From contig JALZVZ010000252.1 of the NCBI GenBank assembly GCA_023299945.1, positions 1 through 23,587 of the forward strand: a DNA stretch of 23,587 nt, written 5' to 3'. The notes beneath the pieces were generated by a model that was given only the letters and a program-made list of their open reading frames with translations, was not told the DNA's origin and made no database searches. Source of the DNA: Altererythrobacter sp. Lineage in GTDB: Bacteria > Pseudomonadota > Alphaproteobacteria > Sphingomonadales > Sphingomonadaceae. The position numbers and the translations under genes are program-made. This document shows, in pieces, positions 3,636 through 21,115 of the stretch; position 1 is the stretch's first letter, and each line of letters starts with the position of its first letter.

Positions 3636-4826
3636 ATGGCGAAGGCTAAATTTGAGCGGAATAAACCGCACTGCAACATCGGCACCATTGGTCACGTTGA
3701 CCACGGTAAAACCACACTGACTGCAGCGATCACAAAAGTGATGGCTGAAGCATCAGGCGGCGAAGCCGTTGATTTTGCAAACATCGATAAAGCTCCTGAA
3801 GAGCGCGAGCGCGGGATCACAATCTCTACCGCTCACGTTGAGTACGAAACCGAAGCGCGTCACTACGCACACGTCGATTGCCCAGGCCACGCCGATTATG
3901 TGAAAAACATGATCACTGGTGCGGCGCAAATGGATGGCGCTATCTTGGTTGTGAACGCAGCTGACGGCCCAATGCCACAAACACGCGAGCACATCCTGCT
4001 TGCGCGTCAGGTTGGTGTGCCAGCTCTGGTTGTTTACATGAACAAGGTTGACCAAGTCGACGACGAGGAAATCCTTGAGCTCGTTGAAATGGAAGTTCGT
4101 GAACTTCTCAGCGAATATGGTTTTGACGGCGACGAAATCGCAATCACTAAGGGTTCAGCTCTTGCTGCTCTCGAAGGCCGCGATCCTGAAATCGGTGCCG
4201 ACTCGATCAAAGCTCTGATGGATTCAGTGGATGCGCACATTCCGCAGCCTGAGCGTCCAGTCGATCAGCCGTTCCTGATGCCAATTGAAGACGTGTTCTC
4301 AATCTCTGGCCGCGGTACTGTTGTAACCGGCCGTATTGAAACCGGCATCGTCAATGTTGGCGACGAAGTTGAAATCGTTGGCATCAAAGACACTTCAAAA
4401 ACTACCGTCACTGGTGTTGAAATGTTCCGCAAGCTGCTCGACAGCGGCGAAGCAGGCGACAACGTTGGCGCACTGATCCGCGGCGTTGCCCGTGAAGAAG
4501 TTGAGCGCGGTCAGGTTCTTTGTAAGCCTGGTTCGGTTAGCCCGCACACTGAATTCGAAGCGAGCGTCTACGTTCTTTCGAAGGACGAGGGTGGTCGTCA
4601 CACACCATTCTTTGCGAACTACCGTCCACAATTCTACTTCCGCACAACCGACGTAACCGGTGAAGTTGTTCTCCCTGAGGGCACTGAAATGGTTATGCCT
4701 GGTGATGACGTGAAAATCGCTGTTAAGCTGATTGCACCGATCGCTATGGACGAAGGTTTGCGCTTCGCGATCCGCGAAGGCGGCCGTACCGTTGGTTCGG
4801 GCGTTGTTGGTAAAATCACCAAGTAA
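3636..4826 (+). CDS. tuf: Elongation factor Tu
   Basis: EF-Tu delivers aminoacyl-tRNA to the ribosomal A site as a GTP complex. The protein is 396 residues with GHVDHGKT (19-26), switch-I RGITI, DCPGH (81-85) and NKVD (136-139), followed by two beta-barrel domains ending in [12 protein letters not shown] frame start at TTG 3630 adds only two residues; ATG 3636 is preferred because AGAAGG at 3621-3626 lies nine bases upstream and the product then begins with the family N-terminus [12 protein letters not shown]. It is the last gene of the str operon, with an inverted repeat and a strong terminator downstream. Whether a second tuf copy exists elsewhere cannot be seen. Confidence 0.99.
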
Positions 4827-4827
4827 G

Positions 4828-4856
4828 CGTTTCGCGCCAAGCTTTTGGCGCTAACG
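4828..4856 (+). other. Inverted repeat just after tuf
   Basis: GCGCCAA (4834-4840) and TTGGCGC (4845-4851) are perfect complements around GCTT, and outer CGTT/AACG (4828-4831 and 4853-4856) can add pairs. It begins right after the tuf stop and precedes the true terminator by about ten bases. It may protect the tuf 3' end after termination. Confidence 0.5.
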
Positions 4857-4863
4857 AAAAATT

Positions 4864-4901
4864 GGCCCGGTGCTCTTAATTGAGTGCCGGGCCGTTTTTT
4901 T
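4864..4901 (+). terminator. Rho-independent terminator of the str operon
   Basis: GGCCCGG (4864-4870) pairs with CCGGGCC (4887-4893), and the stem continues through two G-U pairs and GCTC/GAG-type pairs to a TTAATT loop, for about 12 bp. Seven T follow at 4895-4901. This is the best canonical terminator in the window and separates the str operon from the S10 operon. Confidence 0.85.
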
Positions 4902-5010
4902 GGCGGAGAGTAACGCTAAAAATGCAGCCTTTTTGATGGCTTATCCGCCCAATGGTTCCCGGCATTCTGTGTGACCATAATTAAGGGGGCGGGCAGGGCG
5001 AGAAAAGGGG

Positions 5011-5039
5011 TTGTCAGACTCAGCACTCAAACGTATATG
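5011..5039 (+). promoter_or_regulatory. Candidate S10 operon promoter
   Basis: TTGTCA (5011-5016) and TATATG (5034-5039) are separated by exactly 17 bases, close to the sigma-70/RpoD-type consensus. It lies just past the str terminator and would start RNA near 5046, leaving a leader of about 150 nt. This position suits the S10 operon. No experimental support is available. Confidence 0.45.
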
Positions 5040-5083
5040 CGCGCTTCAGGTTAGAGGATTCGTTCTCTTCCACGTAATTTTGT

Positions 5084-5140
5084 AAGGCCCCCGCAGTGGC
5101 CATCTGGGAAACCAGGCAGGCATAGCGGGTGGTCCTTTTT
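5084..5140 (+). promoter_or_regulatory. S10 leader hairpin with T tract, putative attenuator
   Basis: AAGG-CC-CCCGC (5084-5094) pairs with GCGGG-T-GG-T-CCTT (5125-5137), leaving two single bulged T on the 3' side. Inside, GCC (5099-5101) pairs with GGC (5119-5121), and CTGG-GAAA-CCAG (5104-5115) forms a GNRA-capped tip. The 3' arm runs into TTTTTGTTTTT (5136-5146). The form, a long hairpin plus U-rich tract inside a leader, is that of a transcription terminator or attenuator. In E. coli the S10 leader is controlled by ribosomal protein L4 by attenuation; here the regulator is unknown. Confidence 0.55.
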
Positions 5141-5192
5141 GTTTTTGAGAGGCGTAAAAACCTCTTTGGCTCTTTCGCATTGGTAATAGGTA

Positions 5193-5504
5193 ATGGAAGC
5201 TCAGAATATCCGCATTCGCCTGAAGGCGTTTGATCACCGTGTTCTCGATCAGGCAACTGGCGAGATTGCAGAGACAGCGCGCCGCACCGGCGCTCTTATT
5301 CGCGGCCCCATTCCCATGCCAACGCGCATTGAGAAGTTCACAGTGAACCGCGGCCCGCACATCGATAAGAAGTCGCGGGAGCAGTTCGAAGTGCGCACTT
5401 ACAAGCGGTTGCTCGACATCGTGCAGCCTAACGCCCAAACGGTCGACGCTTTGATGAAGCTCGACCTTGCTGCGGGTGTTAACGTAGAGATCAAGCTCGC
5501 TTAA
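5193..5504 (+). CDS. rpsJ: 30S ribosomal protein S10
   Basis: S10 is a head protein of the 30S subunit and, with NusB, part of the transcription antitermination complex. The 103 residues begin [19 protein letters not shown] and contain the family motif GPIPMPTR near residue 39 and the basic segment following [12 protein letters not shown]. The ATG follows a weak AGG-containing ribosome-binding site. It is the first gene of the S10 operon, lying 366 nt after tuf and, unusually, 273 nt before rplC instead of adjoining it closely. The sequence is complete and ordinary. Confidence 0.99.
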
Positions 5505-5777
5505 GCGAATTGGTCAAACGTCCTTCGGTCGGGACGCTAAACGAGCCGAGAATTACAGGAGCTCTTATGGCTCCGCTGGTCTTTTAAGATCGGCAAGACA
5601 TAGGGATACCGCCGGCGCTTCGCATGCGAAGCAAATGTCCGGGCCGCGTCCCCCGTCTCGCACCTGCCTTTACCGGTTGGTGCATTCAGCCCGGACGGGG
5701 CGACGTTACGAAATTACTGGGTTGTCACGCACGTTGGGAATGGTCCCTGCGTGCCTCTGTATTAGGAGTTACTGACG
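5505..5777 (+). promoter_or_regulatory. Highly structured rpsJ-rplC intergenic leader
   Basis: This 273-nt gap holds at least five inverted repeats: CGTCC/GGACG (5519-5536); GGAGC/GCTCC (5558-5574); a perfect 16-nt palindrome (5617-5632); GTCCGGGC (5637-5644) with GCCCGGAC (5689-5696), enclosing GCACC/GGTGC (5660-5683); and CACGCA (5726-5731) with TGCGTG (5748-5753), enclosing GGGA/TCCC. CCCCGTC (5651-5657) is also complementary to GACGGGG (5694-5700), which overlaps the 5689-5696 arm, so two folds compete. The region ends in the rplC ribosome-binding site AGGAG (5764-5768). It looks like an RNA leader for rplC-rplD and the genes after them. Confidence 0.5.
5567..5587 (+). CDS. Possible six-codon minigene MAPLVF
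   Basis: ATG at 5567 is preceded by AGGAG at 5557-5561 with five bases between, and the frame closes at TAA 5585-5587 after six codons. The ribosome-binding site and codons two to three (GGAGC against GCTCC) can pair with each other, so initiation might be controlled by folding. It may be a leader peptide, or a chance frame inside an RNA structure. No homologue is known to me. Confidence 0.2.
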   Translation: MAPLVF

Positions 5778-17328: not shown

Positions 17329-17406
17329 ATCACGGCAAAACCTGTCGCATTGATACTTTCCACGCTCCTCTGCTTGGCCTAGACCATGGGGCAAGAAGGG
17401 GAGGGT

Positions 17407-18150
17407 ATGATTCAAAAACTCACTGCACGTGTGTTTGGCGCAGCTGCCATGCTGGCCGCTGGCGCAGCTTTATCCATTTCCGCGCCCATTTCAGCCAAAG
17501 TCACCAAGGCCGATGATAAGGGCTTTGTCACACGTGACACTGCCGTGGTGGAGGCTGAACCGAAAGCGGTTTGGCTTGCGCTGATCTCTCCGTCTAAATG
17601 GTGGAATAAGGCGCACACATGGTCTGGCGATGCGGCGAATTTGACCTTGCGCCCGCAGGCTGGCGGATGCTTTTGTGAGCGTATCCCAGAAGATCCGGAT
17701 TCCGATGAAGTGACGCTTGAGGGCAGCGTTGAGCATTTGCGTGTCATTCAGGCTTTTCCTGAAAAAGTGCTGCGGATGCGCGGCGGGCTTGGGCCGTTGC
17801 AAAGCGAGCCGGCCACCGGCGTGCTCACGATTGCGATCGGCGCTAATGAAGATGGCGAGGGCACGCGGATCGTGTGGGAATATGTTGTGGGCGGTACCAT
17901 GCGCTACAAAGTGCCGGTGATTGCCAAGGTAGTTGACGGTGTGATGACGCAGCAATTGGACGCATTGGCAGCAATGCTGGGCCGAATTGATAAGCGGGTT
18001 GCTGATGATGCTCCCGCTGTGGACACGCAAGAAGAGGTGGCAGGCCCGGACGAAGATGCCCCTTCCACCGGCGAGGAAACAAAAGAGGATGCCAGTAAAG
18101 ACCGCATGGCTGAATTGACTGAGGCGGTTGAAGCTTTGGACGAAGAATAA
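17407..18150 (+). CDS. Exported SRPBCC-fold (START/Bet v1-like) protein
   Basis: ATG 17407 gives 247 residues. It begins with a signal peptide (hydrophobic core about residues 9-28, likely cleavage after SISAPISA near 30) and so is probably exported to the periplasm. Next comes a domain (about 38-195) with the SRPBCC pattern: VVEAEPKAVWLALISPSKWWNKAHTW, LRPQAGG, FPEKVLRMRGGLGP, and a C-terminal amphipathic helix. It ends in an acidic, Glu/Asp-rich tail (about 200-247). An alternative ATG at 17386 adds seven residues; ATG 17407 is preferred because GGGGAGGG lies upstream and the signal peptide starts cleanly. The ligand is unknown. It stands 78 nt after adk. Confidence 0.7.
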   Translation: MIQKLTARVFGAAAMLAAGAALSISAPISAKVTKADDKGFVTRDTAVVEAEPKAVWLALISPSKWWNKAHTWSGDAANLTLRPQAGGCFCERIPEDPDSDEVTLEGSVEHLRVIQAFPEKVLRMRGGLGPLQSEPATGVLTIAIGANEDGEGTRIVWEYVVGGTMRYKVPVIAKVVDGVMTQQLDALAAMLGRIDKRVADDAPAVDTQEEVAGPDEDAPSTGEETKEDASKDRMAELTEAVEALDEE

Positions 18151-18228
18151 ACACGCAAGAAACTAGCCCAGATGCACCGCAATAAGGCGCGCTGGGGATA
18201 CGGGACGCATAAGTATCATAGAATGCCT

Positions 18229-18244
18229 CACCCATGGTGGGGTG
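18229..18244 (+). promoter_or_regulatory. Small inverted repeat in the gdhA leader
   Basis: CACCC (18229-18233) is complementary to GGGTG (18240-18244) around a six-base loop, about 20 bases before the gdhA ATG. A TATCAT box at 18214-18219 could be a -10, but I find no good -35. The repeat is short and may be chance. Confidence 0.2.
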
Positions 18245-18265
18245 CAAGCATCAGGAGAAGATACA

Positions 18266-19618
18266 ATGGCAGTTTCCGATCACGTCGATCTCGCGACCTT
18301 CATGGCAGGGGTGAAAAAGCGCAACCCCGGCCAGACTGAATTCATTCAGGCAGTGCAAGAGGTTGCTCAAGATATTTACGGCTTTATCGACGATAAAGAA
18401 GAATATCACGCAGCCCAAATTCTGCGCCGTATGGCAGAGCCAGACAGGGTCATTTCCTTCCGCGTTTGCTGGGAAGATGACAATCACAATATCCGTGTTC
18501 AGCGCGGCTATCGGATCCAAAACAACAATGCGATTGGCCCGTATAAGGGCGGCATTCGTTTCCACCCATCTGTCACCGAAAGCGTGCTGAAATTCCTCGC
18601 TTTTGAGCAAACGTTTAAAAACTCGCTCACCGGTCTGCCAATGGGCGGGGGCAAGGGCGGGGCAAACTTCAACCCGCGCGGCAAATCCGACAGCGAAGTC
18701 ATGCGTTTCTGCCAAAGCTTCATGACAGAGCTTTACCGCCACATTGGCCCTGACACTGATGTGCCAGCAGGCGATATTGGCGTGGGCGGACGCGAAATTG
18801 GCTACATGTTTGGCCAGTACAAGCGCATCACCAACCGCTGGGAAGGTGTGCTGACCGGCAAGGGCCAAGAATATGGCGGCTCGCAAATGCGCCCCGAGGC
18901 AACCGGCTATGGCGCAGTGTATTTCATGCAGAACATGCTGAAACATGCAGGGCACGATGTTGAGGGCAAGACAGCCGTTATCTCTGGCTCCGGCAATGTT
19001 GCAACGCACGCGGCTGAGAAAATCACGCAATTGGGCGGCAAGGTTCTGACCCTGTCAGATAGCGGCGGCTTCATCCATGATCCTGACGGCATAAGCCAAG
19101 AAAAGATCGACTTTGTGAAGCAGCTCAAAACGGTCAAGCGCGGCCGGATCAGCGAATATTGCGATGAGTTCAAAGGGGCATCTTTCCATGAAGGCAAGCG
19201 CCCTTGGGATGTGACGTGTGATCTGGCTTTGCCTTGCGCAACTCAGAATGAGCTCAATGAGGCAGAAGCCGCGGCGCTGGTTAAGAACGGCGTTCAGGCT
19301 GTCTCAGAAGGTGCCAATATGCCTACGACGCTTGAGGGTGTGAAAGTCTTCCACGATGCGAAAATCCTCTACGGTCCGGGCAAGGCTGCCAATGCTGGCG
19401 GCGTGGCTGTGTCTGGTTTGGAAATGAGCCAAAACTCAGAGCGCATCAGCTGGAACCACGAACGCCTTGGTGAAATGCTGACCGAGCTGATGGAAGGCAT
19501 CCACGAAAAATGCGTCGAATATGGCGAGCATGACGGCCATGTCGATTATGTGAAAGGTGCAAATATCGCTGGCTTTAAAAAGGTCGCAGACGCGATGCTG
19601 GCCTTCGGCGTCGTTTAA
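18266..19618 (+). CDS. gdhA: NADP-specific glutamate dehydrogenase
   Basis: The enzyme makes glutamate from 2-oxoglutarate, ammonium and NADPH (EC 1.4.1.4) and is a route of nitrogen assimilation. ATG 18266 gives 450 residues, the size of the hexameric GdhA form. Motifs include GPYKGGIRFHPSV (91-103), PMGGGKGGANFNPRGKSDSE (125-144) with the catalytic Lys130, DTDVPAGDIGVGGREIGYM, and a Rossmann loop ISGSGNVA. AGGAG at 18253-18257 with an eight-base spacer supports the start; a GTG frame start at 18242 has no such support. It is followed by a convergent minus-strand gene. Location beside ribosomal genes is not usual. Confidence 0.95.
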   Translation: MAVSDHVDLATFMAGVKKRNPGQTEFIQAVQEVAQDIYGFIDDKEEYHAAQILRRMAEPDRVISFRVCWEDDNHNIRVQRGYRIQNNNAIGPYKGGIRFHPSVTESVLKFLAFEQTFKNSLTGLPMGGGKGGANFNPRGKSDSEVMRFCQSFMTELYRHIGPDTDVPAGDIGVGGREIGYMFGQYKRITNRWEGVLTGKGQEYGGSQMRPEATGYGAVYFMQNMLKHAGHDVEGKTAVISGSGNVATHAAEKITQLGGKVLTLSDSGGFIHDPDGISQEKIDFVKQLKTVKRGRISEYCDEFKGASFHEGKRPWDVTCDLALPCATQNELNEAEAAALVKNGVQAVSEGANMPTTLEGVKVFHDAKILYGPGKAANAGGVAVSGLEMSQNSERISWNHERLGEMLTELMEGIHEKCVEYGEHDGHVDYVKGANIAGFKKVADAMLAFGVV

Positions 19619-19638
19619 CCAACCGGCAACTGCAGAAA

Positions 19639-19671
19639 GGCTGCGCGTCTATTTAATACGGGCGCGCAGCC
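19639..19671 (+). terminator. Hairpin between convergent gdhA and lectin-like gene
   Basis: GGCTGCGCG (19639-19647) is perfectly complementary to CGCGCAGCC (19663-19671); nearby CTGC and GCAG may extend it. It starts 20 bases after the gdhA stop and contains the stop and last codons of the minus-strand gene. No T run follows on either strand. It may act as a two-way transcript end. Confidence 0.45.
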
Positions 19672-21115
19672 GCAGTTCAAAGCCGGGATCGCCGCTGCCG
19701 GTATCCCCGCGCATCGCGCCTGTGGGGATCACACGAATATGGGTGACCGCAGGGTCCGTGCCATCGCCGCTATCCGCCGGTACGTAGCTAAAGTCAGTTC
19801 CGTCTGTCGAGAAAGCAATGCAGTCGCCTGTGGTGGCCAGTGACACAAATGAGCAGGTCAGCGTTGTGGTTGGCGAGCCATCGGTGAATTGCACCGGCCC
19901 GCTGCCGGGCGCGCCAAAATCACTCACAACCAAAGCCAGCTCTGCCGGCAGGGCGTCTGTGACTTCGACAGTGTCGTAATTGGGCGGGGCATTTCCTTGG
20001 TTCGTCACATTAATTGTGTATTCGACCAATGCTCCAGGCAGCTCAAAATCGCCAAATGTTCCCGAGGTCGAAAATTTAACCTTCGATGTCGTTAAATCCG
20101 CAGCGAGATCGGCGTGAAAAGGCTGGCTAAAAGCAACAATACCGGCACGCTCTGCATCGCCTGCAGCGACACTGCGTTCTGTATCCTGATCCCGATCCTC
20201 ATCCACACGCAAGGTGATGGAATTGGAGCTGATCGCACAATAGCGCAGCCAGCCACCATCGGCATTTCGGCGCGATAACTTCTTGGCCACAACAACAGAT
20301 GTGCCCGTGCTGATACCTGTGGAATTGGCGAAGCAACCATCATCCCACCCAAGAATGTTAAAACCCGTTGTCGAAGCGCTCCAATCGATTGTTGTGCCGG
20401 CAGTATTGGGGAAATTTCCGCTGTTTCCTGATGGGAAAGCAACCCAGCCTATAACCTCTGTGCTGGGGAATGGGCCGCTGTCCGCTTGGCTGCGGTCGAT
20501 GGCAAGCTGAAACCCTGTCAACGACGGGTTCTGGGCGACCGAGGTGATGTGCGGCCGAGACGCGGCGTTGGCGACGTCGACTGTCTCACTATTGGTGGTT
20601 TGAAGGTGGTGCAAAATGGTGGGCGTATTGGGCAGTGATTTGCTGAAATCCACTGTGTCCCAGCCTGCAATACCGCCGGTAAAACCGGTGCCAAATTGCA
20701 CGGTGGAGGTTGAATGCAGGCCAGCTTCGATGATTTGCCCATCGGGCAAGACATGGCGGCCCGGTTCAACAGCGATGTAATGCACGGTCATGGCAAGGTG
20801 GCGGCCATCCCAATTGTCCGGCTCCACAATCAATTCATCAAAGCCAGTTGTGGTCACATTCTGAACTGTAACCGATGCGGAATTAGCGCCACTTTGGGCT
20901 GGCAGAACTATGACAATCGGCGGCGTGTCAAACGTCTGTTGAAATGAAACAAAGTCAGGCGTGCGGTTTGTTCCCAATGTATCGTGGGCCACGAATGTGC
21001 CCGCTTCTAGTCGGCCAGCGTGGGCAGCAGAAGGAAATAAGCAGGAGAAAGCGATCGCTATACATAGTAGCGAAGCGGCAATATTTCCGCGAAATAGGAA
21101 AGTCCTTCGTTTCAT
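19649..21115 (-). CDS. Secreted protein with tandem H-type-lectin-like repeats and DUF11-like end
   Basis: The 488-residue product begins MKRRTFLFRG, then a hydrophobic run and AHA, so cleavage near residue 33 is likely. Two alike units follow: about 39-132 (FVSFQQTFDTPPIVIVLPAQ, VTTTGFDELIVEP, VHYIAVEPG) and about 136-230 (VDFSKSLPNTPTILHHLQTT, LTGFQLAIDRS, VIGWVAFPSG). A middle segment (250-335) has paired Cys and the motif RVDEDRDQDTERS...AGIVAFSQPF, seen by memory in MSHA-type pilus-associated proteins. The end (340-488) resembles DUF11 (VEYTINVTNQGN, VTDALPAELAL). A surface or extracellular adhesin-like role is inferred. It is the only minus-strand gene here. The start has a poor ribosome-binding site. 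Confidence 0.65.
   Translation of the reverse strand: MKRRTFLFRGNIAASLLCIAIAFSCLFPSAAHAGRLEAGTFVAHDTLGTNRTPDFVSFQQTFDTPPIVIVLPAQSGANSASVTVQNVTTTGFDELIVEPDNWDGRHLAMTVHYIAVEPGRHVLPDGQIIEAGLHSTSTVQFGTGFTGGIAGWDTVDFSKSLPNTPTILHHLQTTNSETVDVANAASRPHITSVAQNPSLTGFQLAIDRSQADSGPFPSTEVIGWVAFPSGNSGNFPNTAGTTIDWSASTTGFNILGWDDGCFANSTGISTGTSVVVAKKLSRRNADGGWLRYCAISSNSITLRVDEDRDQDTERSVAAGDAERAGIVAFSQPFHADLAADLTTSKVKFSTSGTFGDFELPGALVEYTINVTNQGNAPPNYDTVEVTDALPAELALVVSDFGAPGSGPVQFTDGSPTTTLTCSFVSLATTGDCIAFSTDGTDFSYVPADSGDGTDPAVTHIRVIPTGAMRGDTGSGDPGFELRLRARIK

Follow-up and report, generated by a model that had tools for sequence, protein, structure and literature searches.

What controls the S10 operon in Sphingomonadaceae, and whether it is an attenuator of the L4-dependent kind found in E. 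coli, is the question raised by the DNA ahead of rpsJ in a draft genome of Altererythrobacter sp. (2,511,287 bases). The window, by which we mean the whole stretch analysed (contig 252 of that genome, 23,587 nt), carries the gene order rpsL-rpsG-fusA-tuf, followed by rpsJ-rplC-rplD-rplW-rplB and further ribosomal protein (r-protein) genes, with gene names given from our reading of the open reading frames (ORFs) and with all features below on the forward strand. The product of rpsJ (5193..5504), ribosomal protein S10, is also the Nus factor NusE (PMC5725501, PMC10931766), and shares 99%–100% identity with the S10 proteins of Erythrobacter and further Sphingomonadaceae entries. Within the same r-protein cluster, between adk and rpsM, the window also holds three long ORFs (17386–21115), one of which resembles glutamate dehydrogenase as read from the ORF alone. 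For comparison, rpsJ was present in 114 of 119 genomes of the family, yielding 113 parsed leaders (L200 being incomplete), and among 114 leaders of an outgroup sample, 107 had at least 110 nt of upstream sequence, with L238 left unparsed.

The comparisons support a promoter belonging to rpsJ itself. The tuf gene ends at 4826 and is followed by a separate terminator of the str operon at 4863..4894, listed by the terminator scan with 13 pairs and then TTTTTTT. Further downstream lie the −35 element TTGTCA (5011..5016), common to the tuf end of most relatives, and, after a spacer of 17 nt, the −10 element TATATG (5034..5039), which reads TATAGG in relatives. Our program scanner missed this pair as it accepts a −10 element only with T as its sixth base, while a relaxed pattern recovered it in 70 of 94 family leaders; within the 60 leaders printed first, every match had a spacer of 17. 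For most leaders of the family, the promoter lies within the 3' end of tuf (e.g., L102, L112, and L137); in the window's lineage, the tuf terminator comes first and the promoter stands apart from tuf. Codon choice is an independent argument that the S10 operon has its own promoter, as the glycine codon preceding the last two valines of tuf, where the −35 element lies, was GGG in 73 of the 92 leaders with a visible tuf end, compared with 9 out of 1579 other glycine codons of the tuf stretches, and the tuf stop codon fell inside TAATATAG in 66 of these 73 GGG leaders. Judged by these patterns, the S10 promoter is under selection and constrains the tuf 3' end in most relatives.

Transcription would start a few bases after TATATG, and the leader RNA would then form two hairpins. 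The one near the expected 5' end, P1 (5053..5068; AGAGGA-UUCG-UUCUCU), was predicted by folding, and its GGATTCG recurs by eye in many relatives among the printed leaders. The larger, P2 (5084..5137), is a three-tier, terminator-like hairpin with a GAAA tip and counterparts in relatives, which the scanner missed since it allows loops of 3–8. Folding of 5080–5146 gave −28.8 kcal/mol (z −2.23; 7 of 200 shuffles as good), and the entire leader (5040–5170) was only mildly more stable than its shuffles (z −1.79; 14 of 200). P2 runs into the imperfect U-tract TTTTTGTTTTT (5136..5146), followed by a small hairpin of 6 bp recognized by eye, P3 (5147..5166; GAGAGG/CCTCTT), which in relatives is variable and at times absent. 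An earlier note on this DNA had described the promoter-like pair, the separate str terminator, the GNRA-capped hairpin with its run into the U-tract, and the second hairpin before rpsJ, all of which were recovered here. No known family accounts for the leader, as Rfam gave no gathering matches in the window or in the loci of five relatives, and the two matches in 4827–5777 were far under gathering, both at 4827–4926.

Terminator-like hairpins at this place are a recurrent property of the family. By a fixed rule (a hairpin of −14 kcal/mol or lower before a T-rich tract, within the 130 nt preceding boxA, the element described below), one was found in 69 of 94 family leaders compared with 8–19 in eight dinucleotide-shuffled sets of 94 leaders, although some of the 69 are the first hairpin after tuf rather than counterparts of P2. 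With a stricter cut of −19 kcal/mol, the real count stayed at 69 and the shuffled sets fell to 5–12. By eye, the U-tract after P2 in relatives is usually interrupted by one non-T, and we thus read the terminator at P2 as probably leaky. P2 itself is not uniform across the family: with regular expressions, 50 P2 sequences were extracted, of which 49 were aligned (L179 was omitted as a tuf terminator), and their joint alignment folded to just 3 pairs. From this set, we picked by eye 20 P2 sequences of a sister clade and 17 of the window's clade. A hand-written structure for the sister clade paired in 91.8% of cells. Both sides had changed in 23 cells (8.5 in shuffles), and the covariation score reached 0.228, compared with 0.158 for shuffles and no more than 0.136 for a slid structure. 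The count of doubly changed pairs stood out little (8 versus 5.4, reached by 37 of 500 shuffles), and further pair types showed no clear excess (22 versus 21.4). In the 17 sequences of the window's clade, the stem was kept in 94.7% of cells, with no covariation measure clearly above shuffles. Compensatory changes in relatives, proposed beforehand as a check on this hairpin, are supported in the sister clade and not significant in the window's own.

A model built from the 20 sister-clade sequences (R1) had the rpsJ leader as its best match (E < 0.001) in 6 of the 24 family genomes searched, and two of the six (G013 and G008) had supplied training sequences; the best R1 match elsewhere in those 24 genomes had an E of 0.008. 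Among 89 further loci (46 of the family and 43 of other alphaproteobacteria), R1 matched L168 and L169 only, both of the family, and it does not match the window leader. At E up to 1, there were 55 matches, part of them on the reverse strand of a leader or elsewhere (L005, L019, L101, and L122). Taken by its sequence record, P2 has been retained while changing fast. No antiterminator emerged for it: pairing between arms of P1 and P2 was seen by eye in a few relatives, and is absent from others and from the window.

The most conserved element of the leader, as measured across the aligned relatives, is located downstream of terminator-like P2. It is a putative NusB-S10 binding site, boxA GCTCTTTCGCATTGG (5169..5183), starting four bases past the end of the feature delimited in the earlier note (5165). 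The full stretch GCTCTTTCGCATTGGT (5169–5184) begins 24 nt before rpsJ, resembles the boxA of rRNA operon (rrn) leaders in family members, and precedes a weak Shine-Dalgarno-like AGG (5188..5190). Of the 113 family leaders parsed, 94, the window's among them, have GCTCTTT no more than 45 nt ahead of rpsJ, usually 23–24 nt from the ATG, and 58 of these 94 contain exactly GCTCTTTCGCATCGGT. The 16 boxA positions averaged 1.79 bits, compared with 0.16 over the preceding 44 nt and 0.53 over the following 7 nt; leader selection itself fixed the first seven bases, and the next nine, which are unselected, were 72%–99% identical. Genome-wide, the 16-mer GCTCTTTCKCATYGGT had a single match apiece in 78 of the 119 genomes, and the reversed pattern was matched nowhere; 77 of the 78 matches lay directly before rpsJ when compared by eye with rpsJ positions. 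The single match elsewhere was at G062:C53:15203 (L296, around 605). The pattern CTCTTTSRCATYG had five matches in the window's genome, one of them at rpsJ. Two boxA-like sites of that genome lie outside clear genes, near TGTCACCTTTG stretches (L084 around 1501, and L085 857–869).

GCTCTTT is absent from 19 of the 113 family leaders, of which L158 and L159 carry GTTCTTTGAAAT, and L192 and L193 carry, by eye, GTTCTTTGACA. In folding, the boxA core was unpaired above 0.5 in 44 of 94 leaders (median 0.47; 0.65 in the window), so the site is not clearly open in predicted structures. In some leaders (L014, L019, L024, L026, and L148), several of them from Sphingomonas, an upstream AAGAGC or similar could by eye pair with GCTCTT and hide boxA. 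Outside the family, [CT]TCTTT[GC] was found in the last 160 nt of 8 of 107 alphaproteobacterial leaders, some of which are short as their contigs end in tuf. Three of the eight are from Magnetospirillum (L036, L037, and L038), with GCTCTTTGAA or GGCTCTTTGAA at −74 before rpsJ, which from its sequence is perhaps an independent boxA; the other five (L051, L056, L079, L230, and L267) were not taken for boxA.

Likeness to rrn boxA could be assessed in the five of 39 family genomes in which 16S was located, a set that does not include the window's own rrn leader. In these genomes, boxA lies 206–273 nt before 16S, compared with 24 nt before the start codon of rpsJ, and reads GGCTCTTTGACATTG in G002, CGCTCTTTCTCATTG in G003, G037, and G005, and GGTTCTTTGACATTG, in three copies, in G031. 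The GCTCTTT core and the following CAT(C/T)G are common to the rrn and rpsJ forms, whereas the conserved CGGT end of the rpsJ boxA is without an rrn counterpart. Three of the five genomes lack GCTCTTT before rpsJ. G002 and G031, the sole genomes where both sites were seen, carry GCTCTTTCGCATCGG before rpsJ, and their two forms differ at positions 8–9 (rpsJ form TTTCGCATCGG or TTTCTCATCGG versus rrn form TTTGACATTG). The conservation past the rrn-like part of boxA (CGGTA, 5180–5185 in the window) has no obvious Shine-Dalgarno role.

Because S10 is NusE and binds boxA together with NusB (PMC10931766), the best reading of this leader, to which we assign a probability of roughly 0.55, is that the S10 operon is under Nus-factor autoregulation, with NusB-S10 acting on the leader boxA behind a leaky terminator. 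The features that point to it are the constraint on the promoter, the hairpin, and the likeness, position, and conservation of boxA. Against it weigh the differences between the rpsJ and rrn forms, the family leaders (and three of the five genomes with a readable rrn leader) that lack GCTCTTT, the CGGT end peculiar to rpsJ, and a core that folding does not clearly leave unpaired. Under Nus-factor autoregulation, part of the transcripts would probably end at the imperfect U-tract after P2 (leaky attenuation), which places the role of P2, we infer, at the level of termination. Read-through transcripts would expose boxA, nearly abutting the ribosome-binding site of rpsJ, and when S10 exceeds the demand of ribosome assembly and rrn transcription, NusB-S10 would bind there. 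The bound NusB-S10 would then join the polymerase-borne Nus complex and block initiation on rpsJ, leaving the untranslated operon open to Rho, with less S10 and less product of the genes behind as the outcome.

The binding, repression, and Rho steps of this scheme are modelled on the E. coli suhB leader, in which a boxA 6 nt before the Shine-Dalgarno sequence promotes Rho-dependent termination by repressing translation; for that repression, the complete Nus complex is required, and an additional 100 nt of spacing is tolerated (PMC5725501). In leaders of this type, as a rule a single Nus gene in a genome has boxA. In suhB and in gammaproteobacterial rpsJ, a Nus-factor gene has boxA less than 50 nt ahead of its start and close to the Shine-Dalgarno sequence, and the same is found here, with a boxA-like sequence less than 50 nt from the start of a gene encoding a Nus factor. 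According to the same source, whose scan concerned gammaproteobacteria only, rpsJ (NusE) is likewise among the boxA-preceded genes, in three gammaproteobacterial genera, and the form scanned for was GYTCTTTAANA, the Sphingomonadaceae form being GCTCTTTCKCATYGG (PMC5725501). Unlike suhB and gammaproteobacterial rpsJ, Sphingomonadaceae have boxA behind a terminator-like hairpin, in most parsed leaders. A boxA-controlled Nus-factor leader, known from E. coli suhB, would on this sequence evidence occur here in a new clade and with a new architecture. A literature search that had most subscription papers outside its reach returned no boxA or attenuator before rpsJ in alphaproteobacteria, and neither a Zymomonas transcription start site paper (PMC7566282) nor an attenuator survey (PMC2965389) names rpsJ in the accessible main text.

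The analogy with suhB makes repression of rpsJ the likeliest effect of boxA, and leaves antitermination as the main rival. The element shares its motif with rrn boxA, and downstream of it lie a long gene cluster and, after rpsJ, a structured gap of 273 nt, so that boxA might load an rrn-like antitermination complex that carries the polymerase through the S10-spc-alpha cluster and this gap, a positive rather than a repressive role. However, boxA is transcribed after P2 and hence cannot relieve it, and it all but adjoins the ribosome-binding site, an arrangement shared with suhB, where boxA acts as a repressive element (PMC5725501), all of which makes antitermination a somewhat unlikely explanation. 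That P2 has no regulatory role, and is a mere second terminator of the str operon placed after the S10 promoter, would suit the many leaders in which this promoter lies inside tuf, as any tuf terminator must then sit in the S10 leader. Yet P2 and its U-tract are also retained where a separate tuf terminator, judged by eye, precedes the promoter (the window, L001, L006–L009, L091, L095, L096, L100, L101, L115, L119, L122, and L138), and we regard this explanation as unlikely. The retention also agrees with the earlier note's argument that a terminator within the leader goes beyond what simple termination needs.

The same note had appealed to L4, which in E. coli controls the S10 operon, and a terminator-like hairpin in a leader of roughly 150 nt, retained and covarying in the sister clade, would fit an attenuator of this type, at which L4 and NusA stabilize a pause at P2 and cause termination. 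The L4-controlled leader of E. coli is also structured, with a site resembling an intrinsic terminator (PMC10931766), but it is without sequence or model similarity to the window leader: the local score between the two was equalled by 260 of 300 shuffles, R1 had no match in the E. coli leader at E up to 10, and the 200 nt ahead of rpsJ in E. coli contain no boxA-like TCTTT. Leaders of the E. coli type are characterized by an L4-binding structure that mimics domain I of 23S rRNA. Furthermore, P2 varies strongly between clades, and an L4 site of the E. coli type is reportedly missing even in Pseudomonas (PMC10931766). With boxA as the most conserved element, L4 control is not supported, and we consider it very improbable. 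A transcription attenuator as such is partly supported, by the terminator-like hairpin and U-tract between promoter and rpsJ.

A second conserved structured RNA (5593..5777) was detected in the 273-nt gap between rpsJ and rplC, ending shortly before the rplC start. Among 140 rpsJ-rplC gaps measured, 78 had its core motif by regular expression, and 47 of these were aligned, showing 43 invariant columns. When the structure included a pseudoknot, 97.2% of cells paired, 62 cells were changed on both sides compared with 18.3 in shuffles, and the covariation score was 0.182 compared with 0.094 in shuffles and at most 0.069 for slid structures. The pseudoknot helix is nearly invariant (two U-A to U-G changes) and, as it hardly varies, its support is complementarity; the RNA is probably pseudoknotted according to this model. 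At E up to 0.1, a model of this RNA (R2) matched 46 of the 59 family genomes, many of the matches being training sequences, and by eye the best match in each of the 46 adjoins rpsJ, that in G037 being short and weak (E 0.0018). In a class-level draw of 114 genomes, R2 was strong in G000 and G089, both of the family, and weak in four others (E 0.03–0.09, three of them partial). Rfam gave no match in 5505–5777 at E up to 5. Mimicry of 23S rRNA was rejected, with a mean local score of 9.9 for the 47 sequences against E. coli 23S versus 10.05 for shuffles; GATACCGCC (at 2458), CATCACA (2512), and GGGCTGA (2524) are collinear in E. coli 23S.

Within the family, boxA and the rpsJ-rplC RNA tend to co-occur and to be jointly absent: 15 of the 19 leaders without GCTCTTT have an rpsJ-rplC gap under 140 nt lacking the core motif, compared with one (L171) of those with it. 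From gene order, our guess is that this RNA, rather than the 5' leader, would be the likelier leader for L3 or L4. For the Alphaproteobacteria, a candidate L2 r-protein leader in the gene cluster treated here is listed before rplB (PMC7247131), and the accessible part of that source contains no S10, L3, or L4 leader of Alphaproteobacteria. Our literature search, with most subscription papers outside its reach, found no description of the rpsJ-rplC RNA. We tentatively suggest, as a possibility held with limited confidence, that two switches in Sphingomonadaceae replace the single L4 switch, namely a NusB-S10 boxA before rpsJ and a pseudoknotted, L3- or L4-sensing RNA before rplC-rplD. In such an arrangement, the boxA switch would tie r-protein synthesis to the demand for rrn antitermination, and the second RNA would govern the remaining genes.

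Nus-factor autoregulation of rpsJ, proposed for three gammaproteobacterial genera (PMC5725501), looks common in Sphingomonadaceae, a family with many species amenable to laboratory work, and the RNA between rpsJ and rplC would be a new r-protein leader candidate. If the reading is correct, rrn leaders and the S10 leader would compete for the same NusB-S10 complex, and a shared RNA motif would couple the supply of ribosomal proteins to rRNA transcription.
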